A stretch of 64,000 bases of DNA from Roseivivax sediminis (lineage in GTDB: Bacteria > Pseudomonadota > Alphaproteobacteria > Rhodobacterales > Rhodobacteraceae). The position numbers and the translations under genes were made by a program. This document shows, piece by piece, positions 4,135 through 37,212 of the stretch. The first letter of the stretch is position 1. Every line of letters begins with the position of its first letter. Below the pieces are notes generated by a model. That model saw nothing but the letters and a program-made list of their open reading frames with translations. It was not told where the DNA came from and did no database searches. The DNA is taken from contig NZ_FOMS01000008.1 of assembly GCF_900112685.1 (NCBI RefSeq), positions 1 to 64,000 of the forward strand. Reading direction: 5' to 3'.

Positions 4135-4135
4135 C

Positions 4136-8868: not shown

Positions 8869-8906
8869 AGTGTGCCCTCCCATCCGGGGTTTGGGCATTT
8901 ATATCC

Positions 8907-9492: not shown

Positions 9493-9615
9493 CGGTGTCA
9501 CCCGGTCCTCTCCGTCACGGATCCTACCGGGCCGGCACCTAGGCCGCATTCAGAAAGCGTCGAACCCTCGCATCCGCGTCCGGAGAGGCCCAAGCGCCGC
9601 ATCAGGCGCTCCGGC

Positions 9616-10404
9616 TCACGCCGGCACAAGCGCCATCGCCCGGATCGGGCTGCCGGTGCCGCGCACGATCTTGAGCGGGGCCGCGATCAGCACAGCGCCC
9701 TTCGGCGGCAGCTGGTCGAGATTCGCGAGCGACGCCAGCCCGAAGCAATTGTCGCGGTGCAGGAAGTTGTGCGCGGGGAACGGTGGCTCCAGCCCGCCGG
9801 CGCAGCCTGCATCGGTGCCGATGCATTGCGTGCCCCAGCCGACGATCTTCTTCGACAGCAGGTATTCGATCGCCTCGGGGGTCGGTCCGGGCGAATGCGG
9901 GCCGGTCTCGTCGGCGTTGAGGAACGCGGCTTCGTCGTGCGCCCGCTTGTCCCAGTCACTGCGCATCACCACCCACTCGCCGGCACCGATCTCGCCATGC
10001 TCGGACTCCCACGCCTTGATGTGGTCCGGGGTGAGCAGGAAGTCGGCGTCCGCCGCGCTTTCGGCAGAGAAGTCGAGAACGTTCACCGGCGCCACGACGC
10101 GCTGCAGCTCGAGCGTGTCGGTAAAGCCTTCCTCATAATCCTTTCCGGTGATCCAGTGGTGCGGGGCATCGAAATGGGTGCCGGAATGCTCGCCAAGCAC
10201 CATCCAGTTCCAGGCGAAGAACGGGCCGTCCTCGTCGTATTCGCTGATCTTGTGGATCTCGACCTTGGGGGTGTTCTTGGCGAAGTCGGGCGGCAGGTGC
10301 AGGATCGGGGTGTCCGGGCCGAGCGTCGCCGACAGGTCCACGACCTTCACCTTCCCCGCGAGCAGCTGCGCCCCCAGATCCTTCACGATGTCCGTTGCCG
10401 ACAT
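9616..10404 (-). CDS. Cyclase-family metal-dependent hydrolase, isatin-hydrolase-like
   Basis: A 262-residue member of the cyclase family (PF04199), which includes kynurenine formamidase KynB and isatin hydrolase. The metal motif is HSGTHFDAPHHW near residue 95. Later come CIGTDAG and PFPAHNFLHRDN, then VLIAAPLKI near the C-terminus, the pattern of the isatin-hydrolase group. The ATG at 10404 has GGGAGAA upstream. It is followed by the MarR gene and iorAB. A plausible role is isatin to isatinate, or another cyclic amide or ester. A second paralogue is encoded at 22440. The substrate is inferred, not shown. Confidence 0.75.
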   Translation of the reverse strand: MSATDIVKDLGAQLLAGKVKVVDLSATLGPDTPILHLPPDFAKNTPKVEIHKISEYDEDGPFFAWNWMVLGEHSGTHFDAPHHWITGKDYEEGFTDTLELQRVVAPVNVLDFSAESAADADFLLTPDHIKAWESEHGEIGAGEWVVMRSDWDKRAHDEAAFLNADETGPHSPGPTPEAIEYLLSKKIVGWGTQCIGTDAGCAGGLEPPFPAHNFLHRDNCFGLASLANLDQLPPKGAVLIAAPLKIVRGTGSPIRAMALVPA

Positions 10405-10448
10405 TTCCGTTCTCCCGATGATCGCGCATTTCCCTGGCAGGTTAGCGA

Positions 10449-11656: not shown

Positions 11657-11687
11657 GGCAAGTGCCTCGTCGTTGCTGTGGGGCCGC

Positions 11688-13070: not shown

Positions 13071-13136
13071 GTCGCTCCTTTCGCGCGCCGCCGCCCCGTG
13101 CGGGGCCGGTCCGGCGCAACCCTTTCCAGCGTGGGC

Positions 13137-19414: not shown

Positions 19415-21400
19415 ATGAGATTCCGCACGACGTCCACCGCCGCCGCCGCGCTGATCGCAGCGACCGGCGCCGGGGCGCACCCGCTCGATGGCCTGACCGC
19501 CGAGGAGATCGACAGCGTCCGCGCAGTGCTGGCCGGGGCCGGTCACATCACCGAGGACAGCCGCTGGCACCTGATCGAGCTCTACGAGCCCGAGAAATCC
19601 GAGGTGTTGACCTGGTCCGAGGGCGACGCCGTGCCGAGGGAGGCGATCGTCAACGTCACCGCGGACGGCACAACCTATCGCGGCATCGTCGACATCGCGG
19701 ACGGCTCGGTCACCGAATGGGCCGAGGCGGAGGGCGAGCCGATGCTGCTGGTCGAGGAATTCGTCGGCGCGATGGAGCTTGCCCTGTCGAATCCCGATTT
19801 CGTCGCCGGGCTCGAGGAACGCGGGCTGACGCCCGACGACGTGTTCTGCCTGCCGCTCACCGCCGGCGCCTTCGGCGATCCGGATGAGGAGGGCCGGCGG
19901 CTGATGAAGGTGCCCTGCTACGTGCTGCCCGAAGGGTCGAACTGGTATGCCAAGCCGATCGAGGGGCTCTATGCCACGGTCGACCTGCGCGGCGACGAGG
20001 TGGTCGAGGTCATCGACACCGGAGTGGTACCGCTGCCCGAGGATTCCTGGGGCTACACCGCCGAAGAGATCGCCGCCCGCGACGACATGGAGATGCGCGA
20101 GGACACCCCCCGCGCCGGAGTGGCGCAGCCCGAGGGCTCCGGAAACGTGACCGTCGATGGCAGCCTGATCGAATGGGACATGTGGTCGATGCGCTGGCGC
20201 ATCGACAAGCGCCCCGGCGTGGTGCTGTCGCAGATCGAAGCGGACGGCCGCGAGGTGCTCTACCAGGCGCACCTGTCGGAGGTTTTCGTACCCTACATGG
20301 ACCCCTCCGAGGGCTGGTACTGGCGCACCTACATGGACAGCGGCGAATACGGCTTCGGCATCTTCCTGTCGCCCTTGCGCGCCGGGGTCGACTGCCCGAG
20401 CTACGCCACCTTCCTGCCGGCGCTCGTTCATGCGGACGACGGCACGCCGCTCGAGATCCCCGACGCGATCTGCGTGTTCGAGCGGCAGGTGGGCGATCCC
20501 GCCTGGCGGCATTTCGAGATCTTCGCGCAGGGCCCTGACACCTTCACCCCGACCGAGGGGCGCCCGGCGACCGAACTGGTGGTGCGCTCGGCCTCCGAGG
20601 TCGGCAACTACGACTACCTGATCGACTATCGCTTCGACCAGTCGGGGCGGATGCGGGTCATGGTGGGCTCCACCGGGCTGGACGCGGTGAAGGGTGTCGC
20701 GGCGACCTCCATGGAAAGCGAGACCGCGGAAGCGGACACGCAGCACGGCACCCTGATCGCGCCGCACCTCGTTGCGCCGAACCACGACCACTTCTTCAAC
20801 TTCCGGCTGGATTTCGACATCGACGGGCAGGCCAACAGCTTCATGCGCACGGGGATCGTGCCGGCCACCGCGCCCGACGACATCCCGCGCCGGTCGATGT
20901 GGGTGACCGAGCAGGAGATGCCGCAGACCGAGGGCGAGGCGAAGTACAAGGTGAACCCGGACACGCCGGCGATGTACCACGTGGGCAACATGGGCGTGAC
21001 CTCGGGGCTCGGGCATCACCCGAGCTACATGATCAACCCCGGCAATTCGGTGGCCTACACGCCGCTCGACGTGGAAAACGATCCGCCGGCGATGCGCAAT
21101 CCCTATATCGAGCACACGATGTTCGTGACGCCCTATGACCGGGACGAGAGGTACGCGGGCGGCGAGTATGCCTTCCAGAGCGACGGGTCGGACACTCTGG
21201 CGACCTGGATGCAGTCGGACGACAGCATCGCGGACACCGACATCGTGACCTGGTACACGATGGGCTTCCACCACATCCCGAGGATGGAGGACTGGCCGGT
21301 GATGCCGCTGATGTGGAAGGGGATCACGCTCGCGCCGTTCAACTTCTTCGACCACAACCCGGCGATCACCGTCCCGGCTGTGGGCGGGGACCAAGAGTAG
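19415..21400 (+). CDS. Copper amine oxidase (primary-amine oxidase, TPQ), exported
   Basis: It oxidises primary amines such as phenethylamine, tyramine or tryptamine to aldehyde, ammonia and hydrogen peroxide. The 661-residue protein has a Sec-type signal (residues 1-21). The general base is Asp308 in YMDSGEYGFG. The topaquinone precursor is Tyr399 in GNYDYLIDY. Copper ligands are His457 and His459 in NHDHF and a third His at 619 or 620 in FHHIPRMEDWPVMP. All key residues are present, so it should be active in the periplasm. It lies downstream of the RpiR gene and ends in a strong terminator. An aromatic amine substrate fits the locus but is inferred. Confidence 0.95.
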   Translation: MRFRTTSTAAAALIAATGAGAHPLDGLTAEEIDSVRAVLAGAGHITEDSRWHLIELYEPEKSEVLTWSEGDAVPREAIVNVTADGTTYRGIVDIADGSVTEWAEAEGEPMLLVEEFVGAMELALSNPDFVAGLEERGLTPDDVFCLPLTAGAFGDPDEEGRRLMKVPCYVLPEGSNWYAKPIEGLYATVDLRGDEVVEVIDTGVVPLPEDSWGYTAEEIAARDDMEMREDTPRAGVAQPEGSGNVTVDGSLIEWDMWSMRWRIDKRPGVVLSQIEADGREVLYQAHLSEVFVPYMDPSEGWYWRTYMDSGEYGFGIFLSPLRAGVDCPSYATFLPALVHADDGTPLEIPDAICVFERQVGDPAWRHFEIFAQGPDTFTPTEGRPATELVVRSASEVGNYDYLIDYRFDQSGRMRVMVGSTGLDAVKGVAATSMESETAEADTQHGTLIAPHLVAPNHDHFFNFRLDFDIDGQANSFMRTGIVPATAPDDIPRRSMWVTEQEMPQTEGEAKYKVNPDTPAMYHVGNMGVTSGLGHHPSYMINPGNSVAYTPLDVENDPPAMRNPYIEHTMFVTPYDRDERYAGGEYAFQSDGSDTLATWMQSDDSIADTDIVTWYTMGFHHIPRMEDWPVMPLMWKGITLAPFNFFDHNPAITVPAVGGDQE

Positions 21401-21720: not shown

Positions 21721-22443
21721 TCAGATCGGCACCGACCCCACGCTCGCCCCGCCACAGACATACAGCGTCTGGCCGGTCACGAAGCCGTTCTCGGGCTCCG
21801 CGAAGAACATGAAGGCCCGCGTGACGTCCCCGGTCTCGCCCAGCCGCCGCACCGGGATGCGCTGCGCGAGGCCCTCTTCCTGGTCGGAGCCCTTGGGCAC
21901 GATACCCCAGAAATTGTCCGTCCGGATCGGCCCCGGCGCGACCACGTTCACGGTGATCCCGTGCGGCGCCAGTTCCAGCGCCCAGGTCCGCGCCATGCCG
22001 AGCATCCCGGCCTTCGACGCACCGTAGGCGGTGCGCGTCGGCGCCCCCAAAGCGGCGCGGGAGGAGTTGAACATCACCCGCCCGAAGCCGCGCGCCTTCA
22101 TCGCCGGCAGGAACGCCTGCACCAGCGTCAGCGCCGACCCCAGGTGAAGCTGCGCCAGCCCGGTGATGTCCTCCGGTTTCGCCTCTTCCACGAGGTTCGG
22201 CCAGATGACGCCTGCGTTGTGCACCAGATGCGTGACCTCGTGCCGCTCCGCGATGCCGCGCGCCGCCTCGGCCACGGCCCCGGCGTCCAGCAGATCGCAT
22301 TCGACATGCTCGATCCGGTCCGCCGCCGTCTCGGGCGCGTGCCGCGCCACCGACACCACGCGGTAGCCGCGCTCCAGCATCGCGAGGGCGAGGTCGAGTC
22401 CGATGCCCTTGTTGCCCCCGGTGATGACCGCCGTGTAGCTCAT
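21721..22443 (-). CDS. Short-chain dehydrogenase/reductase, last gene of the indole-acetate-type operon
   Basis: A 240-residue classical SDR. The nucleotide motif ITGGNKGIG lies at residues 7-15. NAG (HNAGVIW) and the catalytic Ser and YGASK (Tyr-x3-Lys) are intact. An ATGA overlap links it to the cyclase gene upstream. It could oxidise or reduce a hydroxy or oxo intermediate between dioxindole and isatin in indole-3-acetate breakdown, but the sequence alone does not fix the substrate. It is a functional contrast to the degenerate SDR domain encoded at 23219. Confidence 0.85.
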   Translation of the reverse strand: MSYTAVITGGNKGIGLDLALAMLERGYRVVSVARHAPETAADRIEHVECDLLDAGAVAEAARGIAERHEVTHLVHNAGVIWPNLVEEAKPEDITGLAQLHLGSALTLVQAFLPAMKARGFGRVMFNSSRAALGAPTRTAYGASKAGMLGMARTWALELAPHGITVNVVAPGPIRTDNFWGIVPKGSDQEEGLAQRIPVRRLGETGDVTRAFMFFAEPENGFVTGQTLYVCGGASVGSVPI

Positions 22444-23222
22444 GCCGTTTCCTTCTCCACCAGCGCCAGCACGCGCAGCGGGCTTCCCGTTCCGTTGCGG
22501 ATCTTGAGCGGCGCAGCCAGCAGCATCGCGCCGGTCGCCGGCAGCCGATCGAGGCCGGACAGGCATTGCAGCCCGTAGCGCCCGGCGCCGTGCAGGTGAT
22601 AATGCGCCGGATAGGGCGGCTCGAAATGCGTGGCCTGGCCCGCGTCCGTGCCCACCGTCTCGGTCCCGAAGCCGCGGATGCCGCGCTCTTCCACGAGGTA
22701 AAGCACCGCGCCCGCGTCGGGCCCCGGCGAATGCGCGCCGTCCTCGCGCATGTTGAGGTATTTGGCCCCCGACCGCTTCGACCAGTCGGTGCGCATCAGC
22801 ACCCAGGCGCCTTCGGGGATGGCGCCATGCTCGGCCTCCCACGCCTCGATGCGAGCGCGGGTGAGGATGTAATCCTCGTCTTCCGCCGACTCGGCCGAGC
22901 AGTCGATGACGCAGACCGGCCCGACGAAGGCCGCCGGGTCGATCTCGTCAACCGCGCCATTCGCCACGTCACGCCCCGAGATCCAGTGGCAGGGCGCGTC
23001 GAAATGCGTGCCGGTATGCTCGGACATGTGGAGGTTGTGCCACTTCCACGCCGGGCCGCGGTGATCGTAGGCCGAGATTTCCTCCATCCGGAAGCGCGCA
23101 CATTGCCCGAATTCGGGCGGCAGCACGATCACCGGGAAATCGGGGTCGAGCGTGTGGGTCAGGTCCACCACCTCGACCGCGCCCGAGGCCATCGCCCCGG
23201 CCAGATCCGCCAAGACGCTCAT
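22440..23222 (-). CDS. Cyclase-family hydrolase, probable isatin hydrolase
   Basis: A 260-residue PF04199 protein. It has HTGTHFDAPCHWISG (metal-binding His/His/Asp), TVGTDAG, PYPAHYHLHGAGRYGL and LLAAPLKI. These match the isatin-hydrolase group described from roseobacter-type bacteria, where manganese-dependent hydrolysis of isatin gives isatinate. It overlaps both neighbours by ATGA and sits in an operon with a Rieske oxygenase, CoA ligase and aldolase-like protein, where isatin is the expected intermediate. The paralogue at 9616 shares the same motifs. A formamidase role is less likely because a separate alpha/beta-hydrolase formamidase is present. Confidence 0.78.
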   Translation of the reverse strand: MSVLADLAGAMASGAVEVVDLTHTLDPDFPVIVLPPEFGQCARFRMEEISAYDHRGPAWKWHNLHMSEHTGTHFDAPCHWISGRDVANGAVDEIDPAAFVGPVCVIDCSAESAEDEDYILTRARIEAWEAEHGAIPEGAWVLMRTDWSKRSGAKYLNMREDGAHSPGPDAGAVLYLVEERGIRGFGTETVGTDAGQATHFEPPYPAHYHLHGAGRYGLQCLSGLDRLPATGAMLLAAPLKIRNGTGSPLRVLALVEKETA

Positions 23223-24469
23223 GCCCCGCCCTCCGACACTTGCCGTTCCACAACCTTCGGATCCTGCCGCAGCCGGTCGCGCAGGTCCTGCGCGACGTCG
23301 CCGCACCAGATCTCCTCCGTCCCGTCGCGGAGGCCCTGGACCAGCGAGCGCGCCAGCGCCTTCGGCAGCACCTTGGGCGGCGGCACGTCCTGGTGCCAGT
23401 CGTCCTCCGTCGGGCCGACAAACAGCGTCGCGACCCGCACGCCGCCCGGCCTCAGCTCCGCCCGCAGCGTCTGCGCCGCCGAGAGCGCCGCCGCCTGGCT
23501 GGCGTTGAAGCCGCCATAGGCCGGATCGCTCGCCAGCGCGTGCACCGACAGGATGTTGACCCAGGCCACCGCGTTGTTGACGCCGTCCGCGCCGCGGGCC
23601 CGCATGCCCGGCCCGAAGGCCTGCGCAAGCCGCATGAGGCCAAAGGCGTTCACGTCCATCTCGCGCTGCGCGAAGCCGACGTCGCCGCGGGACAGGATGC
23701 CGCCCGGGCGCACGAAGCGCGCGTTGTTGACGAGGATGTCCACCTTGCCGCCGATCTCTCCGGCCAGTTCCACGACCGAGGACGTGTCGGTGACGTCGAG
23801 CGGCAGAAGCTGCACACCCTCCATCGCGGCCAGCGTCTCGCGCTGCGGATAGGGCCGCCAGGTTTCGGCCTCGCCCACGAACACCACGCTCGCGCCCGCA
23901 TCCAGCAGCGCCTTGGCCAGCGCCGGGGCGTTCGCCTGCCGCGCGTCGGTGAGCAGGACGCGGCGGTGCTTCGGATCGCAGGTCAGCTCCCGCAGCTCGG
24001 GATCGTCGGCCATGTTCGGTGTCTCCCCCTCGGGCAGCGCCATCAGCACCCCCTGCCCGGCCCGGTCCAGCCGGTTGATGAGCCGCACGCGCCCGCCCTT
24101 CTCGCAATCGCCGTGAACATGCGCGACGACCGACACGCCGACGTCGAGCCGCACCGTCCCCGTGCGCCACGGCGCCGCACGGCGGAAGTAGAGGTTGGGC
24201 GAGGTGCGCACCGTCGTCTCCGCGATCAGGGTGCCGGCGGGATCGGTGTCGCGCCAGCGCAGATCGGTCGACAGGCACCCGTGGCAGGCATCGCGCGGCG
24301 GATACTGGACCGCGCCGCATTCCGCGCAATGCTGGAGGGCAAAGCGCGCCTCGGCCGCCGCCGCACTCAGGCCGAGTGCCGCGCGCGACCGCGCGGCCGG
24401 CGGCGACAGCGGCACCGCCTGCGGTTTCTGCGGGTTCTTCTTCGGCGGGGGCGCGATCGGATCGGTCAT
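23219..24469 (-). CDS. Fusion of DUF35 (zinc-ribbon/OB-fold) with a degenerate SDR domain
   Basis: A 416-residue two-domain protein. Residues 45-150 form the DUF35 unit: a zinc ribbon with Cys48, Cys51, Cys62 and Cys65, then an OB-fold. Residues 169-405 follow the SDR fold. The Gly-rich nucleotide motif is missing (LLTDARQANAP in its place), and the catalytic Tyr-x3-Lys is FNASQ (Phe321, Gln325). So the SDR half is probably not an oxidoreductase. DUF35 proteins act as obligate partners of thiolase-like aldolases, and the preceding gene encodes one. The start at 24469 overlaps that gene's stop as ATGA. The SDR half may serve for assembly; this is inferred. Confidence 0.8.
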   Translation of the reverse strand: MTDPIAPPPKKNPQKPQAVPLSPPAARSRAALGLSAAAAEARFALQHCAECGAVQYPPRDACHGCLSTDLRWRDTDPAGTLIAETTVRTSPNLYFRRAAPWRTGTVRLDVGVSVVAHVHGDCEKGGRVRLINRLDRAGQGVLMALPEGETPNMADDPELRELTCDPKHRRVLLTDARQANAPALAKALLDAGASVVFVGEAETWRPYPQRETLAAMEGVQLLPLDVTDTSSVVELAGEIGGKVDILVNNARFVRPGGILSRGDVGFAQREMDVNAFGLMRLAQAFGPGMRARGADGVNNAVAWVNILSVHALASDPAYGGFNASQAAALSAAQTLRAELRPGGVRVATLFVGPTEDDWHQDVPPPKVLPKALARSLVQGLRDGTEEIWCGDVAQDLRDRLRQDPKVVERQVSEGGA

Positions 24470-25635
24470 GCCGCCCCCTCGATCACCGCGGCGCCGGAGC
24501 ACAGCCCGCGGTCGTAATTGATCATCCCGAAGCCCGAGACGAGCGCCTTCCGCGCCTCCGCGACCTGCGTCGGCCCGGCGGTCTGCGTCACCTGCCGGAT
24601 CGCCTCCACCAGCCCGATGAAGCCGCCGCCCGCGCCCGCCTGCCCGGCCGAAAGCTGCCCGCCAGAGGTGTTGTGCGGCAGATCGCCCGTGACGGTCAGG
24701 TCCTTGTTCCGCAGGTACTCCGGCGCGGCGCCCTTGTCGCAGAAACCGAGGTCCTCGAATTGCAGCATGGAGATCACCGGGTAGTCGTCATAGGTCTGGA
24801 CGAGGTCCATGTCCTCGGGGCCGCAGCCCGCGCAGGACCACAGCGTGTCGCGGTCCATCTCCCACCCGCCGCGGAGCTGCATGGGATCGTCCGGGAAGGC
24901 ATTGTGCCGCTCGATGGTCGAGGAGATGCGCGCCGCCGGAAGACCGCGCTTGGCAGCCTCGTCTTCGGTCATCACAAGGAACGCCTCCGCCCCGGCGCAG
25001 GGCATCACGCAATCGAAGAGCGCGATGGGGTCGGCGATGGGCCGCGCCGCAAGGTAGTCGTCCAGCGTCAGCGGCTTCTTCATCACCGCGTTGGGGTACC
25101 GCAGGGCGTTGTCGCGCTGCGCCACGCAGATCCGGCCGAAATCCTCGCGCGTCGCGCCGTACTCGGTCATGTAGCGGTCGGTCAGCAGGGCGAACATCGC
25201 GTTCGGCCCGCCGTAGCCGTAAGGGTACGCGGCATCCATCGCGAAGCGCGAGAAGCTCGACAGAAGCTTGCGGAACGAATCGATCTGGTTGGTGTCGCCC
25301 GCGACGCAGGCGACGATGTCGGCATCGCCCGCCTGCACCGCCCGCGCCGCGCGGCGCAGGGCCACCACGCCCGAGGCGCCGCCCATCGGGATGGAGTCGA
25401 GCCAGCGCGGCGTGAAGCCGAGATGCTGTGTCAGCCCGACCGGCGTGTCGGGGAACAGCGTGAAGGACGCGACCGACAGCCCGTCGACGTCCTCCTTGCG
25501 CAGCCCGGCGGCGTCCAGAGCGCCTTTCAGCCCGCGCGCCAGCCAGTGATGCGCGGTCTCGGTCGAATAGCGGGTGTAGGGCGTGGAGAAGGGCGCGGCG
25601 ATCACCACCCCGTCATAGGATTGCGGTGTTCTCAT
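24466..25635 (-). CDS. Thiolase-superfamily protein of the SCP-x/Ltp2 type, probable retro-aldolase
   Basis: A 389-residue thiolase-fold protein. Where classic thiolases have the nucleophilic Cys, it reads SIPMGGASGVVALRRAA with no Cys, as in Ltp2-type side-chain-cleaving aldolases. It keeps VQTYDDYPVISMLQFEDLGF and the C-terminal HNTSGGQLSAGQAGAGGGF. Ltp2 enzymes split tertiary beta-hydroxyacyl-CoA esters in a complex with a DUF35 protein, and a DUF35 fusion is encoded next with an ATGA overlap. In this operon it could cleave a 3-hydroxy-oxindole-acetyl-CoA to isatin and acetyl-CoA. The reaction is inferred. Confidence 0.8.
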   Translation of the reverse strand: MRTPQSYDGVVIAAPFSTPYTRYSTETAHHWLARGLKGALDAAGLRKEDVDGLSVASFTLFPDTPVGLTQHLGFTPRWLDSIPMGGASGVVALRRAARAVQAGDADIVACVAGDTNQIDSFRKLLSSFSRFAMDAAYPYGYGGPNAMFALLTDRYMTEYGATREDFGRICVAQRDNALRYPNAVMKKPLTLDDYLAARPIADPIALFDCVMPCAGAEAFLVMTEDEAAKRGLPAARISSTIERHNAFPDDPMQLRGGWEMDRDTLWSCAGCGPEDMDLVQTYDDYPVISMLQFEDLGFCDKGAAPEYLRNKDLTVTGDLPHNTSGGQLSAGQAGAGGGFIGLVEAIRQVTQTAGPTQVAEARKALVSGFGMINYDRGLCSGAAVIEGAA

Positions 25636-27257
25636 GCGGCCTGACGCTTCTTCATCTTGCGGGTGTCGATGGTGCCCGCGTCCGCCAGAAGATCGGCGGC
25701 CAGCGTCTTGAGCACCCCGCGCTGGATCTTGTTGGTCGCGGTGAGCGGCAGCTCACCTACGAAGGCGACGTAGCCGGGCACCTTGTAATAGGCCATCTGG
25801 CCGAGCGCCCACTCCACGATATCGCGGGCCAGCGCCTCTCCGGCCTCGCCCGAGACCTTGAGGCAGGCGAAGACCTCGTCGCCGCGCACGTCGTCGGGAA
25901 CCGCCGCGACGCCCGCCGCCTCGATCGCCGGATGGCGCATGAGCACCGATTCCACCTCCACCGCGGCGATGTTCTCGCCCGAGCGGCGGATCACGTTCTT
26001 CTTGCGGTCGACGAAGACCATGTCGCCGGACGGCTCCTGCCGCACGACGTCACCGGTGTGGAACCAGCCCCCCTCCCAGACCTTCGCGGTCTCTTCGGCG
26101 TTCTTCCAGTATTCGGTGAAAAAGCCCCGGCGCGGGTCGTCGCCCTTACGACGCACCAGGAGTTCACCGGGCGTGTTCGGGGCCACGTCGGCGCCGGCAT
26201 CGTCCACGAGCCGCACCTCCAGTTCCGGCCCCGGTCGGCCGAAGCACGCCTCGCCCACGCGGCGCGGTTCGTGATTTGCGGCCACCACAGCGCCGGCGCC
26301 GGTTTCGGTCATCGCCCAGGCCTCCATCAGCGGGAAGCCGAAGCGCGTCTCGAACGGGCCGTGCAGCTTGGGATCGACCCCCGCGCCGAAGCCGAAACGC
26401 ACCGAATGGGCGCGGTCAGCGGGATCCTCCGGCGCGCCCATCAGCATCGACGGCATCACGCCGAGGTAGTGCAGGCAGGTGGCGCCACTCTCCTTCACGG
26501 AGGCCCACCACGTGCGCGGGTGGAACCGGTCGAGCGCGGTCAGGCAGCCGCCCACGGCGACCATCGCCATGAAGGAATAGGCCATCGCGTTCATGTGGAA
26601 GATCGGCAGCGGCGTCAGCATCCGTTCACCGTCCTCGGTCAGCGTGCAGACGCCGCCCGCGCCGGCGTACCAGCGCCCGGCCTCGAGGAAATAGGTGTTG
26701 GAGAGAACGCAGCCCTTGGGCTGGCCCGTGGTGCCGGAGGTATAGAGCATCGCCGCCTCGCGCGCCTCGGGCGCGACATCGGCGTCGAAAACCGGCCCGC
26801 CGCGCGGCGCCGGCACGTCCTCGCCCGGCGCGCAGACCGGCAGGTCGAGGCCCGCCGCCTGCCCGGCCGCGCGCAGTTCCTCGCAGCGCGCGGGGATCGC
26901 GACGACCAGCGCGGGCTCGGCGTGGCCGGCCATGTATTCCAGCTCTGCCGCGCGCAGGTCGGGGTTCACCGGCACCACCGACAGGCCCAGCCCGTTGAGT
27001 GCGATCCAGTAGAGGAAGAAATCCGGCCGGTTCTCGAGCAGCAGCATGACCCGCTGGCCGGGCGCGTAGCCCGAAGCCGCGAACGCCTCTCGCAGCGCGA
27101 GGACCCGCGCCTGCGCAGCGTCATAGGTGATCTCTCCCGCCGCGATCCCGTAGATGTCCGCCGTCTCGGCCAGAACGTTCAGCACCGGCCGCTCGGGCCA
27201 GAGGCCCGCCGCCGCCGCGAAGGCCTCGGCGACCGTCTCCGCTTCCATCGGCCTCAT
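25632..27257 (-). CDS. AMP-forming acyl-CoA ligase (aryl/acyl acid:CoA ligase)
   Basis: A 541-residue ANL-superfamily ligase. The P-loop LYTSGTTGQPKG is at 171-182. PLPIFHMNAMAYSF, the YWKNAEETAKVWEGGWFHTGD stretch (adenylate-binding Asp), DRKKNVIRRSGENI and the C-terminal lysine in TATNKIQRGVLK are all present, so it should be active. The ATG at 27257 is preferred because it makes an ATGA overlap with the dioxygenase beta gene; a longer open frame exists. It would activate the carboxylate made by the Rieske oxygenase before side-chain cleavage. The substrate is inferred from context. Confidence 0.88.
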   Translation of the reverse strand: MRPMEAETVAEAFAAAAGLWPERPVLNVLAETADIYGIAAGEITYDAAQARVLALREAFAASGYAPGQRVMLLLENRPDFFLYWIALNGLGLSVVPVNPDLRAAELEYMAGHAEPALVVAIPARCEELRAAGQAAGLDLPVCAPGEDVPAPRGGPVFDADVAPEAREAAMLYTSGTTGQPKGCVLSNTYFLEAGRWYAGAGGVCTLTEDGERMLTPLPIFHMNAMAYSFMAMVAVGGCLTALDRFHPRTWWASVKESGATCLHYLGVMPSMLMGAPEDPADRAHSVRFGFGAGVDPKLHGPFETRFGFPLMEAWAMTETGAGAVVAANHEPRRVGEACFGRPGPELEVRLVDDAGADVAPNTPGELLVRRKGDDPRRGFFTEYWKNAEETAKVWEGGWFHTGDVVRQEPSGDMVFVDRKKNVIRRSGENIAAVEVESVLMRHPAIEAAGVAAVPDDVRGDEVFACLKVSGEAGEALARDIVEWALGQMAYYKVPGYVAFVGELPLTATNKIQRGVLKTLAADLLADAGTIDTRKMKKRQAA

Positions 27258-27757
27258 GGCAGAAGCTGGATGTTGCCGAAGGCGGCGTCGCAATTGAGGA
27301 TGTCGACCCGTTTCTGCCGGATCAGCAGCCGGTCGGCATCGCGCACAAGGTCGTGCGTCGCGGTCAGCGCGAGCAGGATCTGCTCGTCGAGCCGCGTCTC
27401 CACGTAGTGCATCTGCGTCGTCACCAGATATTCGCCCGCCTCGTTGTCGATCCTGTCGACATAGGGTCGCTGGATGACGTGATGGCACCGCGTCTTGGGC
27501 TTCTGCGAAAAGGTCCGCGCCCCGGCCAGACGCTCGATCCGGAGGCGCAGCATGAACTGGTCCTCCCACATCAGCGAGGTCTCGTGGATCGGATCCTCCT
27601 GCTGATAGTCGAGCGGCATCCAGTACATGCCGTCCTTCGTCCACAGGTTCAGCCAGTCGTCGTAATGGCCGAAATCGAGCATCCGGACCTCGTCGTAGAC
27701 GAAGTCGATCAGGTCCTCGCGGGTCACGTCGCGGTTCTTGACGTCGAGCGTGGTCAT
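27254..27757 (-). CDS. Aromatic-ring-hydroxylating dioxygenase, beta subunit
   Basis: A 167-residue small subunit of a Rieske oxygenase (PF00866, SnoaL-like fold). It shows LIDFVYDEVRMLDFGHYDDWLNLW near the N-terminus, YWMPLDYQQED and the RLRIERL segment, typical for this structural subunit. It overlaps the alpha gene upstream and the CoA ligase gene downstream by ATGA. Together with the alpha subunit it corresponds to the oxygenase pair called IadD/IadE in indole-3-acetate-degrading bacteria, if the operon assignment is right. Confidence 0.9.
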   Translation of the reverse strand: MTTLDVKNRDVTREDLIDFVYDEVRMLDFGHYDDWLNLWTKDGMYWMPLDYQQEDPIHETSLMWEDQFMLRLRIERLAGARTFSQKPKTRCHHVIQRPYVDRIDNEAGEYLVTTQMHYVETRLDEQILLALTATHDLVRDADRLLIRQKRVDILNCDAAFGNIQLLP

Positions 27758-29106
27758 TCCGCGGCCTCCAGCACTTCGGCCTCGGGCATCGAGGCGGTCA
27801 TGAACTTCACCCAGGCATTGAACTGGTTGCGCATCTGCCGCTCCGTCGTGCCGTTCTCCACCGCTTCGGCGTCGAAATCCTCGTCGTCCTGGTAGAGCCG
27901 CTGGACGTTCACCCATTCCAGCCCGTCGGCCATCAGGCCCTCCTGCGCGCGTTCGTACATCTCAAGATCGTCGTGCCCGACGATTGAGGTCGGCGCGTTG
28001 ATCATCCGGTTGTACATCGCGGTGCGCGCGACCAGCTCGTCGGGCGCGTCGACCAGACGGTAGATCCAGCTTTCCACCAGCGTCTTGTCCGGCCCCAGCG
28101 GGATGAAGTTGCGGAGCTGCTGGATCGGCCCCTTGATCATGATGTTGGGGAAATAGACCGTGTTGTGCCGGTTCTCGCCCAGGATCTCCTTGGCGCGTTC
28201 CTCGCCATAGGCTTCTTTCATCGCCTCTTCGTAGCCGGGGATCTCGGAATAATCGGCGTGGATCGAAGTGTGCACGCCGGTGTGTCCGTGCCCGTTCGGC
28301 CAGGTGCGGATGCCCATTTCCTCGAAGAACTCGTAAGGGCTCATGAACGGCGCGATGATCTGCATCGCCGGGGGCTTCGGCGCGTCCTTCGGCATGTCCA
28401 TCTCTTCCCAGATCTTCACCGCCGTCCCGGCGCTGCTTTCATGCGCGACCATCGGGTGGCAGGTGTCGGTCTGGTTCTCGACCAGCATCTTCCAGTTGCA
28501 GCGGTGCATGTAGCGCAGGGGCTGGCCCACGACCTCGAGCCGCCCGGCCGGCGAGCGGTCGACCATGTTGTCGAAGGACGACAGCGAATCCCCGAAATAT
28601 TCCTCGAAGGAGATCCCCTCTTCGGCCAGCCGCGCGAAGATGAAGCCGCGATAATTGTGGACGTCGCCCACCGCCTTCATGCCCCGGGCGCTCTCGGTCT
28701 CGGAAAGGCCGGTGCCGTCGTAGCCCTTCTTCAGCGGGATCGCGAGAAGGCAGCCGTCGGTCTTGAAGGACCAGGCGTGATAGGGGCAGCGGAAGAACTT
28801 GCCGGTGTTGCCGGTGCGGTCGATGGCGATCTTGGTGCCCTTGTGCGGGCAACGGTTGTAGAGAACCTTCACCTCGCCATCAGAGTGCCGCACCATGATG
28901 ACCGGCTGATCGCCGATCTGCGTGGTGTAGTAATCGCCCTTCTTCGGGACCTGGCTGTCATGGCCGACGAAGACCCAAGTATTGGCGAAAAGGTGCTTCA
29001 TCTCGAGCCGGTAGACCTCCGGCGAGGTGTAGATGTCGCGGTGCACCTGGTAGGGCGTCACCAGCGCCTCGACGTCGGCGCGGGTCTGATACTTGGCCTG
29101 GGGCAT
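27754..29106 (-). CDS. Aromatic-ring-hydroxylating dioxygenase, alpha subunit (Rieske)
   Basis: A 450-residue catalytic subunit. The Rieske cluster ligands are Cys86 and His88 (NRCPHKG) and Cys107 and His110 (FRCPYHAW). The mononuclear iron site is read in LVENQTDTCHPMVAH, with Asp214 bridging and His217 and His222 as ligands. It adds dioxygen to an aromatic substrate with electrons from the reductase encoded just upstream. The operon (CoA ligase, Ltp2-like aldolase, isatin-hydrolase-like enzyme) points to indole-3-acetate as substrate. Benzoate- or anthranilate-type dioxygenase is the alternative. Confidence 0.92.
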   Translation of the reverse strand: MPQAKYQTRADVEALVTPYQVHRDIYTSPEVYRLEMKHLFANTWVFVGHDSQVPKKGDYYTTQIGDQPVIMVRHSDGEVKVLYNRCPHKGTKIAIDRTGNTGKFFRCPYHAWSFKTDGCLLAIPLKKGYDGTGLSETESARGMKAVGDVHNYRGFIFARLAEEGISFEEYFGDSLSSFDNMVDRSPAGRLEVVGQPLRYMHRCNWKMLVENQTDTCHPMVAHESSAGTAVKIWEEMDMPKDAPKPPAMQIIAPFMSPYEFFEEMGIRTWPNGHGHTGVHTSIHADYSEIPGYEEAMKEAYGEERAKEILGENRHNTVYFPNIMIKGPIQQLRNFIPLGPDKTLVESWIYRLVDAPDELVARTAMYNRMINAPTSIVGHDDLEMYERAQEGLMADGLEWVNVQRLYQDDEDFDAEAVENGTTERQMRNQFNAWVKFMTASMPEAEVLEAAE

Positions 29107-29124
29107 GTCCTTGGTCCTCCCTTC

Positions 29125-30081
29125 TCAGAGGTCGAGTTTCAGGCGGGCGGATTTCGCCCGGCTGACACAGATCTGCATGACCTTGTTCGAGGCGCGTTCT
29201 TCGGACGACAGCACCACATCGCGATGGTCCGGCTCGCCCTCCAGCACGTCGGTCTGGCAGATGCCGCAATCGCCGCGCTGACAGTCGTAGATGAGATCCT
29301 CGCCCGCCTCTTCGAGCACCTCGATGATCGTGCGGCCCGGCGGGATCGTGTAGACTTCGCCGGAGGAGGCAAGCTCCACCTCGAAGGCCGTGTCGCCGTC
29401 CTGGTCCGCCGGGGCGTCGAAAAGCTCGAAATGGATCTGTTCGGCGGGATAGCCCTCGGCCTCGGCCGCGGCCTTCACCGCCTTGATCATCGCCTTGGGT
29501 CCGCAGACATAGACATGCGCCGAGGGATCGGCCGCCTTCACGATGCCGGCCACGTCCAGCGGCCCGCCCGCGCGGTCGTCGTGATGCATACTCAGCGCGT
29601 CGCCATGCGCCTCGGCCAGCCGGTCCGCGAAGGCCGCGGCCGCCTCGGACCGCACGGCGTAATGCAGCGCGTAGGGCGCGCCGCGCGCCTTGAGCGCGGT
29701 CGCCATCGACACGATCGGGGTGATCCCGATGCCGCCGGCGATCAGAACGGAGGGCGCGTCGCCCCCGGCCAGCGGGAAATCGTTCGACGGCCCCTCGACG
29801 GCGACGGTGTCGCCCTCGCTCAGCCCGTGCATGTAGCGCGACCCGCCGGTGCTCTCGGCCTCCAGCCGGATGCCGAAGCGGTAGGCGGCCGGCGCCGCCG
29901 CCCCGCCGTCCCAGTCGATCAGGCTGTAGGACCGCGTGGTACCGTCGGGCAGGTGCACGTCGACATGGGCGCCCGGATCGTAGGCAGGCAGCGGCGATCC
30001 GTCCGGCGCCTCCAGCGTCACGGCCCGAATCAGCTCCGCCGCCTCGGCGATTTCGGTCACCTTGAGATCCAGTGCCGTCAT
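29125..30081 (-). CDS. Oxygenase reductase, phthalate-dioxygenase-reductase type (FMN, NADH, [2Fe-2S])
   Basis: A 318-residue one-piece electron-transfer protein. The flavin motif RSYSL lies near residue 60, the nucleotide-binding domain carries IAGGIGITPIVSMA and YVCGPKAMIKAV, and the C-terminal plant-type ferredoxin has Cys267, Cys272, Cys275 and Cys305. This domain order is that of phthalate dioxygenase reductase. The ATG at 30081 has GGGGGTGG upstream. It is the first gene of the minus-strand operon and supplies electrons to the oxygenase. It is divergent from a TRAP transporter operon. Confidence 0.9.
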   Translation of the reverse strand: MTALDLKVTEIAEAAELIRAVTLEAPDGSPLPAYDPGAHVDVHLPDGTTRSYSLIDWDGGAAAPAAYRFGIRLEAESTGGSRYMHGLSEGDTVAVEGPSNDFPLAGGDAPSVLIAGGIGITPIVSMATALKARGAPYALHYAVRSEAAAAFADRLAEAHGDALSMHHDDRAGGPLDVAGIVKAADPSAHVYVCGPKAMIKAVKAAAEAEGYPAEQIHFELFDAPADQDGDTAFEVELASSGEVYTIPPGRTIIEVLEEAGEDLIYDCQRGDCGICQTDVLEGEPDHRDVVLSSEERASNKVMQICVSRAKSARLKLDL

Positions 30082-30255
30082 GCCACCCCCTTTGGATGCA
30101 GGCGCAAATGCCTTTCGATGCTTCAAGCATGAAAGATCCTGCGCCGTTGCGTCAAGCTTCAAGCCCAAAAAAATGCGTTTTCATGTTTTTCGTTTGTCAT
30201 GAGCCGAAATCGGCGCTTACCCTCGGCGCCAGATCCATCACAGGGAGTGTCACCA
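30082..30255. promoter_or_regulatory. Divergent control region, oxygenase operon / TRAP-MarR operon
   Basis: This 174-bp AT-rich gap lies between two divergent operons. It contains the short palindrome ATGCTT-C-AAGCAT (30118-30130) and a GCTTCAAG half-site (30157-30164). The half-site matches the left arm of the TTCAAG-N14-CTTGAA operator, but the right arm is not conserved. The MarR regulator encoded at 33090 is the likeliest binder. AGGGAG (30242-30247) is the ribosome-binding site for dctP. Confidence 0.5.
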
Positions 30256-31281
30256 ATGAACAGGATCGCACGAACACTGACTGCAAGCGCGGTCGCGCTC
30301 GCAGCGGCCTCCGTTTCGGTCTCGGCGCAGGAGACGACGCTGCGGCTGTCGAACTGGCTGCCGCCGTCGCATCCGATCGTGAAGGACATCGTCGTGCCCT
30401 GGGCCGAAGACGTCGAAGAGGCGACCGAGGGCCGCGTGACGGTGGAGATCCTCGATGCAGCGCTCGGCCCGCCGCCGGCGCATTTCGACCTCGCCGCGAC
30501 CGGCGCGGCGGATGTCACCTATGCGCCGCACGGCTACACGCCCGGACGGTTCGGCCTGACGGACATCGCCGAGCTGCCGCTGATCACGCCGTCCTCGACC
30601 GCGCTGTCGGTCGCCTACCAGCGCGTCCACGAGGAGATGCTGGCCGAGGCGGGCGAACACCAGGGGGTGAAGGTCCTGTCGGTCTGGACCCACGGGCCCG
30701 GGCACCTGTTCACCACCGGCGCCGACGTCACGCCGCTCGACACGGTCGAGGGGCTGAAGATCCGCGTGGGTGGCCCGCTGCCGTCGCAACTGGCCGAACA
30801 GATGGGCATGGTGCCGCTGCAATCGCCGTCGACCCAGACCTACGAGGTGCTGTCGGGCGGCGTCGCCGACGCGATCTACTTCCCCTACGAGTCGGTCACC
30901 TTCTTCAACCTCGACGAGCTGCTGACCAAGGCGCTGCGGGTGGACGGCGGGCTCTACAACACGTCGTTCTTCATGGTGATGAACCAGGCGAAGTGGGAGA
31001 GCCTCTCCGAAGAGGACCAGGCTGCCATCGATGAGGTCTCGGGCGAAGCACTGGCCCGCATGGCCGGCCAGGCCTGGGACAACGCCGACGAAGCGGGCCT
31101 CGAGGCGATGGAAGGCAGCGTCGAATTCCACGACGCCACCGAGGAAGAGCGCGCGCAGATCGAGGCCTGGTCCGAGCCGCTTTACGAAGAGGTGCGCGCC
31201 AAGTTCGAGGCGAAGGGCGTGGATTTCGACGCCGCGCTCGAGATGCTGACCTCGGAGGCCGAGAAGGTCGCGTCGGAATGA
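30256..31281 (+). CDS. dctP: TRAP transporter solute-binding protein
   Basis: A 341-residue periplasmic receptor with a Sec signal (residues 1-24, ending SVSAQ). It has LRLSNWLPPSHPIVKDIV and VEGLKIRVGGPLPSQLAEQM, where the conserved Arg binds the ligand carboxylate. The ATG at 30256 lies 8 bp after AGGGAG; an in-frame ATG 19 codons earlier is rejected because it has no such site and would hide the signal peptide. First gene of dctPQM-marR, divergent from the oxygenase operon. It probably imports that operon's acid substrate, for example indole-3-acetate (inferred). Confidence 0.92.
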   Translation: MNRIARTLTASAVALAAASVSVSAQETTLRLSNWLPPSHPIVKDIVVPWAEDVEEATEGRVTVEILDAALGPPPAHFDLAATGAADVTYAPHGYTPGRFGLTDIAELPLITPSSTALSVAYQRVHEEMLAEAGEHQGVKVLSVWTHGPGHLFTTGADVTPLDTVEGLKIRVGGPLPSQLAEQMGMVPLQSPSTQTYEVLSGGVADAIYFPYESVTFFNLDELLTKALRVDGGLYNTSFFMVMNQAKWESLSEEDQAAIDEVSGEALARMAGQAWDNADEAGLEAMEGSVEFHDATEEERAQIEAWSEPLYEEVRAKFEAKGVDFDAALEMLTSEAEKVASE

Positions 31282-31796
31282 GCGCACCTCAAACCACCAC
31301 AGGGCGCCGCGCCGGCGCCCTGCGATCCGCCTTCCGGCGCATCACGGCAGTCCTGACCGGCGTGCTGCTGCTGACGCTGACCGCGATCACGCTGGTCGAC
31401 GTGCTGGGGCGCTACTTCTTCTCCAGCCCCCTGCCCGGCGCGACGGAGCTGACCGAGCTTCTGGTCATGGCCATCGTCTTCGCCGGCCTGCCGGCGATCT
31501 GCCTCGACGACGGGCACATCACCGTCGATCTGTTCACTACGCGCCTGAAAGGCCGGGCCGAGGGCGTGCAGACTTTCCTGTCTCGCCTCGTCGTCGCGGT
31601 CATGCTCGCCATCGTCGCCTGGCAGATGTGGGAGCACGGCGCCCGCATCGGCAGCTACGGCTCCACCACCACCTATCTGCGCATCCCGCTTCAGCCGGCA
31701 GCGCAGGCGGCCAGCGTGCTCTGCGCCGTCTCCGCGCTGATCGTCGCGACGCTGGCGGTCCTGCGCCTGCCCAAGGGCCGCTCCGAGGAGATCTGA
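31278..31796 (+). CDS. dctQ: TRAP transporter small permease
   Basis: A 172-residue membrane subunit with four helices. ITLVDVLGRYFFSSPLPGAT and GLPAICLDDGHITVDLF are typical DctQ stretches. The start overlaps the dctP stop by ATGA. It joins DctM in the sodium-coupled complex. Confidence 0.9.
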   Translation: MSAPQTTTGRRAGALRSAFRRITAVLTGVLLLTLTAITLVDVLGRYFFSSPLPGATELTELLVMAIVFAGLPAICLDDGHITVDLFTTRLKGRAEGVQTFLSRLVVAVMLAIVAWQMWEHGARIGSYGSTTTYLRIPLQPAAQAASVLCAVSALIVATLAVLRLPKGRSEEI

Positions 31797-31797
31797 C

Positions 31798-33084
31798 ATG
31801 GACTGGCCCATCGGCCTCGCGCTTCTGCTCGGGCTCATCTTCGCGGGCGTGCCGATCGCCTTCGCGCTCTCGGCCATCGGCCTTGTCGGCGTGATCTCGA
31901 TCATCGGCCTCGATCCCGCATTCGCCATGCTGGGGCAGGTCTATTTCGACAGCGGCCGCAGCTACACGCTGTCGGTGGTGCCGCTGTTCCTGCTCATGGG
32001 CAACTTCATCGTGCAATCGGGCATCGCGTCCGAGCTTTACGACGCCGCGAATGCCTGGCTGCGCCACCGCAAGGGCGGGCTGGCGATGGCCACCATCGTC
32101 GCCTGCGGCGGCTTCTCTTCGGTCTGCGGATCGTCGCTCGCCACCACCGCGACGATGGGGCGGATTTCCCTGCCGGCGATGAAGCGCTACGGCTATTCCG
32201 ACAGCCTCGCAGCGGCATCGGTCGCCGCCGGCGGCACGCTCGGCATCCTGATCCCGCCCTCGGTGATCCTGGTGATCTACGGCATCCTGACGCAACAGGA
32301 CATCGGCAAGCTGTTCCTCGCCGGGCTCGTGCCCGGGCTCATCGGCATCCTGTTCTACATGGGCGCGGTGCGCCTGTCGCTTTGGATGCGGGCCGAAGAT
32401 CACGGCCGGATCGACAAGCTGCCCCTTGCCGAACGGCTGCGCGCCACGCGCGGCGTCGCCGGGGCGCTGGTCCTGTTCGTCTTCGTGCTGGGGGGCATCT
32501 ACCTCGGCGTCTTCACCGCGACGGAGGCCGCGGGCATGGGCGCCGGCGGGTCGATCCTGATCACCGCGCTGCGTGGAAAGCTGGGCCTGCGCGAGACGCT
32601 GGCGACGCTCTTCGACACCGCCAAGACAACGGCAGTGATGTTCTTCATCCTGTTCGGCGCGCTCTATTTCCTGAACTACGTGAACCTCGCGGGGCTGACG
32701 ACCGACCTGCGCGGATGGATCAACGGGCTCGGCGTCGGGCGGATCGAGCTGATCCTGATGCTGATCGTGCTGTTCCTGATCCTCGGCTGCCTGCTGGAGA
32801 GCCTGTCGATGATCCTGCTGACGGTGCCGGTGCTCTATCCCATCGTGCAGGGCATGGGGATCGACCTGATCTGGTTCGGCGTCTTCGTCGTCGTCGCGAC
32901 GGAGCTGAGCTACATCACCCCGCCCATCGGCATGAACGTCTTCGTCATGCGGCTCGTCGCGCCGGACATCCCGCTGGAGCGGGTGTTCGCGGGCGTCCTG
33001 CCCTTCGTCATCGTCGATGTCGGCCGGCTGCTGTTGCTGATCGCGGTGCCGGGGCTTGTCCTCTTCATCCCGAACTCGATGTGA
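31798..33084 (+). CDS. dctM: TRAP transporter large permease
   Basis: A 428-residue DctM with about 12 hydrophobic helices. It has VVPLFLLMGNFIVQSG, GSSLATTATMGRISLPAMKR, the GTLGILIPPSVILVIYGILT binding region and ELSYITPPIGMNVFVM near the C-terminus. One base separates it from dctQ. Translation probably continues into the MarR gene that overlaps or closely follows its stop. Confidence 0.93.
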   Translation: MDWPIGLALLLGLIFAGVPIAFALSAIGLVGVISIIGLDPAFAMLGQVYFDSGRSYTLSVVPLFLLMGNFIVQSGIASELYDAANAWLRHRKGGLAMATIVACGGFSSVCGSSLATTATMGRISLPAMKRYGYSDSLAAASVAAGGTLGILIPPSVILVIYGILTQQDIGKLFLAGLVPGLIGILFYMGAVRLSLWMRAEDHGRIDKLPLAERLRATRGVAGALVLFVFVLGGIYLGVFTATEAAGMGAGGSILITALRGKLGLRETLATLFDTAKTTAVMFFILFGALYFLNYVNLAGLTTDLRGWINGLGVGRIELILMLIVLFLILGCLLESLSMILLTVPVLYPIVQGMGIDLIWFGVFVVVATELSYITPPIGMNVFVMRLVAPDIPLERVFAGVLPFVIVDVGRLLLLIAVPGLVLFIPNSM

Positions 33085-33089
33085 GCGTC

Positions 33090-33572
33090 ATGGGCACGGA
33101 ACCGCGCCAGGGTGATCTGAACGAGGGGGGCGACGGCGACGCCCCCTTCGTGGCCGACTACCTGCTATTCCTGCTCGCCTCCACCAGCGCGGCGGCGAGC
33201 GCGGAATTTCACGCCGTGGTGCGGGCCGAGGGGCTTCGGGTGCGGGAATGGCGCGTGCTGGCGTGCCTCCACGACGAGGACGGCCAGATGACCACGCGGC
33301 TGGCAGAGCTTGCGCTGATGGAGCAATCGCGCCTGACCCGGATCATCGACCAGATGCACACGTCCGGGCTCGTCGAACGTCGCAGCGACGCCGAGGACCG
33401 ACGCCGCGTCCGGGTGTTCCTGACGGAGCGCGGTGCCGCCGTGGCCGCAAACATGATCGAGAAGGCGCGCGCGCACGAGGCGGCTCTCATCGCCCGCCTG
33501 CCGGGCGCGAGCGGCGAGACCTTGAAGCGCCTGCTGAAGCGGGTGCACGCGGAACTGGTGGACGGGGAGTAG
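33090..33572 (+). CDS. MarR-family transcriptional regulator (IadR-like candidate)
   Basis: A 160-residue MarR protein. The winged helix includes LRVREWRVLACLHDEDGQMT, then MEQSRLTRIIDQMHTSGLVE and the basic wing DRRRVRVFL. It is the last gene of the TRAP operon. The start is either ATG 33090 or an upstream GTG at 33081 that overlaps the dctM stop; no clear ribosome-binding site decides between them. In indole-3-acetate (iad) loci of other bacteria a MarR regulator senses the auxin, so this gene is the natural candidate to control both arms of the divergent 30.1 kb promoter. Confidence 0.85.
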   Translation: MGTEPRQGDLNEGGDGDAPFVADYLLFLLASTSAAASAEFHAVVRAEGLRVREWRVLACLHDEDGQMTTRLAELALMEQSRLTRIIDQMHTSGLVERRSDAEDRRRVRVFLTERGAAVAANMIEKARAHEAALIARLPGASGETLKRLLKRVHAELVDGE

Positions 33573-34868: not shown

Positions 34869-34923
34869 ATGACTGCCGCGCGATGTGACATTCGACGGAA
34901 ATGTTGCAGGGAAGGAGCGCGCG

Positions 34924-37208
<2,285 letters not shown>

Positions 37209-37212
<4 letters not shown>

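Follow-up and report, generated by a model that had tools for sequence, protein, structure and literature searches.

How do bacteria that carry an iad operon remove the acetate side chain of the auxin indole-3-acetate (IAA)? By means of the iad pathway bacteria control the auxin around roots, and root commensals have been engineered to carry it (PMC12633357); the side-chain step of the pathway has so far rested on gene annotation. The question is raised by the first 64,000 nucleotides of contig NZ_FOMS01000008.1 of Roseivivax sediminis (hereafter the window), in which the eight genes iadCDEFGHIJ occupy positions 21721-30081 of the minus strand and form a known, iad-type auxin-degradation operon. 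An earlier note on this DNA had read these genes, in this order, as Rieske reductase, alpha and beta subunits, coenzyme A (CoA) ligase, Ltp2-like aldolase, DUF35 fusion, isatin-hydrolase-like cyclase and short-chain dehydrogenase/reductase (SDR), and all eight lie where it had placed them. It had also held that iad-type auxin degradation was known and that a retro-aldol removal of the side chain was its own inference, and full-text searches of open PMC papers did not find such a mechanism for iad in print. Judging from the protein sequences, the operon probably degrades IAA in such a way that IadG and the DUF35 domain of IadH split dioxindole-3-acetyl-CoA into isatin and acetyl-CoA by a retro-aldol reaction, and the retro-aldol idea of the earlier note is likely right.

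According to this proposal, IadCDE would oxygenate the indole C2=C3 bond of IAA, IadJ would oxidise the hydrated product to dioxindole-3-acetate (3-hydroxy-2-oxindole-3-acetate, DOAA) and IadF would make the CoA ester of DOAA, a tertiary beta-hydroxyacyl-CoA. IadG, acting with the DUF35 domain of IadH, would deprotonate the C3 hydroxyl via Tyr282, and cleavage of the C3-CH2 bond by retro-aldol would give isatin and acetyl-CoA. The SDR half of IadH would be structural and not catalytic, and IadI would hydrolyse isatin to isatinate. Within this scheme, three elements are our own inference from the present analysis: the retro-aldol cleavage, the parts played by the IadG residues and the inertness of the SDR half.

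The active site of IadG

The gene iadG (24466-25635, minus strand) encodes a predicted retro-aldolase of the thiolase fold with Gly86, the motif Tyr282-Asp-Asp284-Tyr and Gln332. The best match of IadG among PDB sequences was 9myr, the Sal-Shy(DUF35) aldolase of Comamonas testosteroni (E 3.3e-50), followed by 4u4e and 6ok1 (Ltp2), and the Sal chain of 9myr (CtSal) was also the nearest structure when an AlphaFold2 model of IadG (mean predicted local distance difference test score 85.7; residues 125-141 poor) was searched with Foldseek (E 3.3e-30; TM-score 0.86 on the query). In alignments with the thiolases 7pxp and 7yvy, the nucleophilic Cys of the latter corresponds to Gly86 of IadG, their His to Gln332 and their HDAF motif to the YDDY motif at residues 282-285, for which CtSal has YDCY, along with the Gln, and TcLtp2 has YDHF; we take the Cys, His and HDAF positions to be the catalytic residues of thiolases. 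All three features, Gly at the nucleophile site, Gln at the His site and YDDY, were found in 114 of 114 IadG sequences (the window and 113 others), and Tyr282, the motif Tyr shared with CtSal and TcLtp2, is likewise invariant (114/114). As neither a nucleophilic Cys nor a catalytic His occurs in any of these 114 sequences, we rejected an SCP2-type thiolase or beta-ketothiolase for IadG. On chemical grounds, DOAA-CoA, being a tertiary beta-hydroxyacyl-CoA that lacks a keto group, is a fitting substrate for a retro-aldolase but not for a thiolase. In the window, the DUF35 partner IadH is encoded beside IadG; the same holds for 108 of 109 other fetched loci in which IadG is at least 55% identical, and the exception, L170, is clipped by a contig end.

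Comparison with characterised systems places IadG near two DUF35-dependent aldolases. With Sal-Shy it shares the thiolase fold, the DUF35 partner, the catalytic Tyr and the Gln at the thiolase His site, but it has Asp where Sal has a catalytic Cys, the iad DUF35 domain is fused to a degenerate SDR and that of Sal to a MaoC hydratase, and the predicted substrate is a tertiary alcohol and not a steroid. With Ltp2-ChsH2(DUF35) from Thermomonospora curvata (6ok1) it shares the fold, the catalytic Tyr and the DUF35 partner, and Ltp2 reportedly cleaves at a tertiary C17 hydroxyl to give a ketone, much as proposed for IadG, whereas the YDHF motif and the general acid Tyr344 of Ltp2 are not present in IadG. 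The benzoylsuccinyl-CoA thiolase BbsAB (7pxp) also combines the thiolase fold with a DUF35 partner, but possesses the Cys, the His and the HDAF motif, none of which is found in IadG. In both Sal and Ltp2 the motif Tyr is the base, and the second catalytic residue is Cys304 in Sal and Tyr344 in Ltp2 (PMC12329534). Asp284 of IadG occupies the site of Sal Cys304 and Ltp2 His296 and, because a counterpart of neither Cys304 nor Tyr344 is present, IadG is by its predicted active site outside both the Sal and the Ltp2 subgroups; it would work like Sal or Ltp2 if Asp284 or another group fills the role of the second residue. The proposal would extend DUF35 aldolases beyond steroid breakdown and names a new active-site variant, YDDY. 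Related YDDY proteins with about 44% identity to IadG, which were counted among the 114, occur in four loci (L041-L044) with no iad operon in the fetched stretch, one of them near an SDR of 32% identity (L043) and another near two CoA ligases of 29-30% identity (L044), and are possibly aldolases of other pathways.

Might the carbon-carbon chemistry of IadG and IadH on the CoA ester instead be of another sort, for instance acyl transfer of the PhlABC type? DUF35 proteins also partner non-aldolases (BbsAB, PhlABC) and Asp284 is unlike the equivalent residue of either known aldolase, but the nearest characterised relatives of IadG are two aldolases, isatin was detected in Variovorax cultures (PMC9613470) and 103 of the 109 loci contain an isatin hydrolase gene within the same stretch (five of the other six are clipped by contig ends and L163 is without one), so that we regard such chemistry as very improbable.

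The DUF35 fusion protein IadH and the published assignment

IadH (23219-24469, minus strand) is a fusion of a DUF35 domain (about residues 36-130) with a degenerate SDR (about residues 165-413), as recognised by Pfam zf-ChsH2, OB_ChsH2_C and adh_short, the numbering of the Pfam search running 11 higher than the one used here. Its N-terminal half combines a ChsH2 zinc ribbon, the four cysteines of which are kept in 109 of 109 sequences, with an OB fold. In the other half, modelled as an SDR fold with 5u4s as closest structure, Phe321 and Gln325 occupy the sites of the catalytic SDR Tyr and Lys, and the Tyr-Lys pair is absent from 102 of 103 covered IadH sequences, as opposed to both residues being present in 83 of 83 covered IadJ sequences of the same set. 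The IadH of the Variovorax-like loci L138 and L168 has Phe/Lys where that of the window has Phe/Gln. The SDR nucleotide motif, presumably TGxxxGxG, is also altered in the IadH sequences that were displayed. A catalytically active SDR was thus ruled out for nearly all members of the family by the missing Tyr-Lys pair, and this loss of catalytic residues had been missed in the earlier note. In two loci, L040 (157 amino acids) and L125 (131 amino acids), closed open reading frames (ORFs) encode an IadH that is a DUF35 domain alone; it is the isatin hydrolases of the same two loci that bear GLAS, the signature of type B.

These residues bear directly on the published assignment, in which IadG is a ketothiolase and IadH an alcohol dehydrogenase that, together with IadF, remove the side chain reductively to give dioxindole, on which IadI would act. 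Passages of PMC12633357 report that iadCDE and iadF to iadJ are required in Variovorax, that deletion of iadF, iadG or iadH leads to accumulation of DOAA (C10H9NO4), as does loss of iadI, and that C8H7NO2 appears without iadI; the authors state there that the functions of IadG and IadH were inferred from annotation. We consider this assignment unlikely: the 114 IadG sequences lack the nucleophilic Cys and the catalytic His, DOAA-CoA would offer no beta-keto group to thiolyse, the Tyr-Lys pair is missing from all but one of the covered IadH sequences, Variovorax-like L138 and L168 included, and IadI is an isatin hydrolase orthologue. From these sequences, the two gene labels of the preprint look wrong, and the annotations ketothiolase and alcohol dehydrogenase can be exchanged for an aldolase-DUF35 step that is testable.

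Several observations weigh against a retro-aldol cleavage by IadG and a structural SDR half in IadH. In the PDB search with IadG, 4u4e, a putative thiolase, comes second, after one aldolase and ahead of the other, IadG is without Tyr at the site of the Ltp2 general acid Tyr344 and, for Asp284 as the presumptive catalytic residue, there is no tested precedent. The IadH of L162 (L162:10510-11763), alone among the 103, has both Tyr and Lys, reflecting either an ancestral state or a reversal, and weakens the claim that the domain is inactive. Moreover, the SDR half of IadH is conserved like the DUF35 half, with a mean pairwise identity of 0.598 for each in 84 loci, so that a faster decay of the SDR half was not seen and this half must therefore have some function; we take it to be a maintained scaffold that is structural rather than catalytic. 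The Variovorax deletions (PMC12633357) add that the iadI mutant accumulates DOAA too and, as IadI acts later, the build-up of DOAA therefore does not pin IadG and IadH to one step. Also, C8H7NO2 (dioxindole) accumulates both in the iadI deletion and in an expression strain that lacks iadI; in these passages it is not reported as isatin, and the retro-aldol proposal must assume a cellular side reduction of isatin by other enzymes; isatin and dioxindole were both detected in Variovorax cultures (PMC9613470). Finally, literature searches of open PMC full texts found no assay of IadG or IadH.

Operon context and the oxygenase

All genes of the operon are transcribed from the minus strand, with 4-bp overlaps at iadD/E, E/F, F/G, G/H, H/I and I/J and a gap of 18 bp between iadC and iadD. 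The product of iadC (29125-30081) is the flavin/[2Fe-2S] reductase of the oxygenase (Pfam NAD_binding_1 and Fer2) and has the same place in other iad operons; iadD (27754-29106) and iadE (27254-27757; Pfam Ring_hydroxyl_B) encode the Rieske oxygenase alpha and beta subunits, and iadF (25632-27257) encodes an acyl-CoA ligase of the adenosine monophosphate-forming type (Pfam AMP-binding and AMP-binding_C), presumably acting on DOAA, which supports the CoA activation foreseen in the earlier note.

The window genes match iadC to iadJ of Variovorax paradoxus CL14 (PMC12633357). The likeness to the iad operons of this strain, of Achromobacter and of Bradyrhizobium comprises the set and order of iadC to iadJ, the IadD residues, the isatin hydrolase, a MarR regulator and iorA/iorB as iadA/iadB. 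In contrast to the known operon, iadAB of the window are separated from iadJ by about 13 kb, next to a second isatin hydrolase and in a separate transcription unit, and the flanking genes encode a tripartite ATP-independent periplasmic (TRAP) transporter, whereas Variovorax has the ATP-binding cassette (ABC) binding protein IadK2. The exact order CDEFGHIJ on one strand was found in 65 of the 109 other loci, many of the remaining 44 being clipped by contig ends or holding only part of the gene set, and the gene arrangement is therefore not due to chance. In L138 and L168, which are presumably from Variovorax, as their IadD shares 94% identity with the CL14 chain, a single run iorA-iorB-C-D-E-F-G-H-I-J is present, and a plasmid of Roseibium aggregatum carries a MarR gene, iadC to iadJ, a thioesterase gene and TRAP genes. 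The closest named loci, among the best 80 of 564 confirmed stretches that were kept from the contig scan for relatives, belong to Tropicimonas, Phaeobacter, Roseivivax and Tranquillimonas, with identities of 83-86% for IadG. L064 and L104 were omitted from the counts, as they lie on the same contigs as L031 and L033, and so were L045-L048, tblastn matches below 38% identity having been dropped; in the class-wide scan, larger regions were fetched for 18 of 67 genomes with matches. The source genome (4.62 Mb in 37 contigs) has one IadG match at E <= 0.001. IacA, the flavin monooxygenase of the iac operon, was not found by Pfam among the eight operon genes, to which the search for it was confined.

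IadD and 7yls have the same residue at 247 of 429 aligned positions (57.6%), and 13 of the 14 Rieske-ligand, iron-ligand and auxin-pocket residues named in PMC10374108 are kept with respect to the Variovorax enzyme, the exception being Leu211, which is Gln in the window. The earlier note had proposed IAA as the substrate, and these residues speak for it; for orthologues, the literature shows IAA to be a substrate of IadDE. That the operon of this organism acts on an indole or aryl acetate other than IAA is suggested by the exchange in the pocket and by an identity of only 57.6% to the tested enzyme, but every other named residue is kept and isatin hydrolases as well as an IadR-like MarR regulator are encoded in the same cluster, and we give this possibility very little weight.

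The formation of 3-hydroxy-2-oxindole-3-acetate had been ascribed in the earlier note to the Rieske enzyme, the SDR being given no role. According to a preprint, IadJ is needed after the Rieske enzyme: gene deletions and isotope tracing place this SDR between the Rieske enzyme and DOAA (PMC12633357). IadJ (21721-22443, minus strand; Pfam adh_short) has an intact Tyr-Lys pair, as noted above for all covered IadJ sequences, and is expected to oxidise the hydroxylated indoline to DOAA. In passages of the same preprint, IadCDE is called a monooxygenase on the ground that the first product retains all seven deuteriums and contains no oxygen from water, whereas oxygen from water enters the hydrate and DOAA in expression strains, while DOAA of the wild type is almost unlabelled. 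A normal Rieske cis-diol would carry its C2 hydroxyl on a hemiaminal carbon, able to lose and regain water, and a fast oxidation by IadJ would keep both atoms of O2, which would explain the wild-type labelling with no need to invoke a special pool of water.

A second Rieske alpha/beta pair, the alpha subunit of which is about 50% identical to IadD, follows iadJ directly in L138, L160, L166 and L168. In ten loci (L034-L039, L139, L140, L143 and L144), iadG, iadH and iadI stay together and the fetched stretch contains no close IadD; two of these loci (L037 and L039) have a distant Rieske alpha subunit (23-25%). In such loci the same aldolase module may be supplied by a different oxygenation system.

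Isatin hydrolases, IadAB and neighbouring genes

IadI (22440-23222, minus strand), which the earlier note had called an isatin-hydrolase-like cyclase, matches isatin hydrolase A of Labrenzia aggregata (5nnb) with an E value of 3.8e-138 and contains the metal motif HTGTHFDAPCH, WKW and GLQC, which together are the signature of that enzyme (PMC6117287) and fit the general isatin hydrolase pattern HxG[T/A]HxDxPxH, WxW/FxW and GLQC/GLAS. We saw no function-relevant difference from this close orthologue, and isatin hydrolase activity of orthologues is documented in the literature. Among 102 covered sequences of the aligned IadI set, 97 have GLQC, 2 GLAS and 3 GLPA, and iadH and iadI adjoin (same strand, less than 200 bp apart) in 100 of 103 loci holding both. 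The isatin hydrolase A that was crystallised shares 244 of 255 residues with the cyclase of the Roseibium aggregatum iad operon and is therefore an IadI. A second isatin hydrolase, of type B (9616-10410, minus strand; 4j0n, E 1.5e-154; GLAS), is encoded upstream of iadA with a MarR gene in between. Labrenzia aggregata has both types (PMC6117287), and so does the window genome.

The genes iadB-iadA (5099-8898, minus strand; NF006179 and TIGR03336), which lie downstream of this MarR gene (9007-9549) and of the type B hydrolase, encode proteins of the indolepyruvate oxidoreductase type (IorB/IorA), and iorA/iorB, as iadA/iadB, are markers of iad loci (PMC9613470). Isatinate is 2-aminophenylglyoxylate, from which a 2-oxoacid oxidoreductase would yield 2-aminobenzoyl-CoA, and IadAB, for which the passages cited here give no reaction, may therefore have isatinate as their substrate and turn it into 2-aminobenzoyl-CoA. 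As a tentative extension, which we hold to be possible though not probable, one region might thus encode an auxin pathway through CoA thioesters, in which YDDY proteins, as a third class of DUF35-dependent aldolases on a pseudo-SDR scaffold, produce isatin and acetyl-CoA and IadAB oxidatively decarboxylate isatinate to 2-aminobenzoyl-CoA, free anthranilate being a side product and not obligatory.

For IadAB alone, chances are about even that they act upstream, from indolepyruvate to indoleacetyl-CoA, or on another arylpyruvate, and not on isatinate. Besides the family name, indolepyruvate oxidoreductase, this is suggested by a Variovorax deletion strain in which anthranilate was fully recovered with iadC-K2 and no iadAB (PMC12633357), so that iadAB seem not to be required for anthranilate there. 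In the class-wide scan, IorA was found in 10 of 11 genomes with IadG of at least 58% identity and in 48 of 374 others (Fisher p 3e-8, without correction for kinship), but in six of those ten (G065, G185, G187, G279, G281 and G357) it lies on another contig, at 55-58% identity, and in the family relative G154 an IorA was found but no match to IadG. With IorA in 58 of 385 class genomes, of which 48 belong to the 374 lacking a close IadG, an IorA dedicated to iad was ruled out. When 47 of 62 IorA matches outside the window were examined, an isatin hydrolase was nearby in 4 of the 47; for the 45 with no iadG in the fetched stretch, one of which (L182) is a piece of an iad locus, this was the case in 3, leaving 42 without. 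Against an upstream role, IorA has a type B isatin hydrolase for a neighbour both in the window and in L173, L175 and L178, IorA or IorB occurs in 41 of the 109 iadG loci (many of which are short), the window genome has a second, long match of the indolepyruvate oxidoreductase type elsewhere, and C8H7NO3, the formula of isatinate, piles up in strains overexpressing iadC-K2; together with C7H7NO, it does so only in these strains, which would lack iadAB (PMC12633357).

L173, L175 and L178 share the genes for isatin hydrolase B, an oxidoreductase dependent on flavin adenine dinucleotide, MarR, IorA and IorB (the second and third named by eye). In L185 an isatin hydrolase gene is directly followed by iorA and iorB, with homologues of a thioesterase, an SDR and a flavoenzyme further on and on the other strand.

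Next to the iad operon, TRAP transporter genes (30199-33084, plus strand; ORFs named by eye) run divergently from iadC and are candidates for auxin uptake; a homologue of the large TRAP subunit is found beside iad in many loci. They are followed by a gene for a MarR regulator of the IadR kind (33084-33572, plus strand, within a longer ORF in which the true start is not fixed), with matches to 3cdh (E 4e-42) and to 7kki and 7kfo (E 2e-20), the last being Variovorax MarR_73 with IAA (PMC9613470). Further on, a flavoenzyme (34885-37212, plus strand) resembles salicylyl-CoA 5-hydroxylase or 2-aminobenzoyl-CoA monooxygenase-reductase (NF006101, 1283 bits versus a cut-off of 1078), the aminobenzoyl-CoA name being one that we presume for this family. 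Its homologue follows F-G-H-I in L142. Genes for an enoyl-CoA hydratase, an acyl-CoA dehydrogenase and a benzoate-type CoA ligase are located at 46076-49834 and, with the flavoenzyme, look like an aerobic 2-aminobenzoyl-CoA route.

On the other side, directly downstream of IorB, a tryptophan 2,3-dioxygenase (TIGR03036, just below cut-off) and a kynureninase are encoded at 2923-5032 with no formamidase gene between them, and the type B isatin hydrolase upstream could be a candidate for the formamidase function. A copper amine oxidase gene (19415-21400; PF01179), convergent with the iad operon, could encode the formation of indole-3-acetaldehyde from tryptamine and thereby feed IAA. Genes for a glutamine-synthetase-like protein, an aldehyde dehydrogenase and an iron alcohol dehydrogenase are present at 10511-14501.

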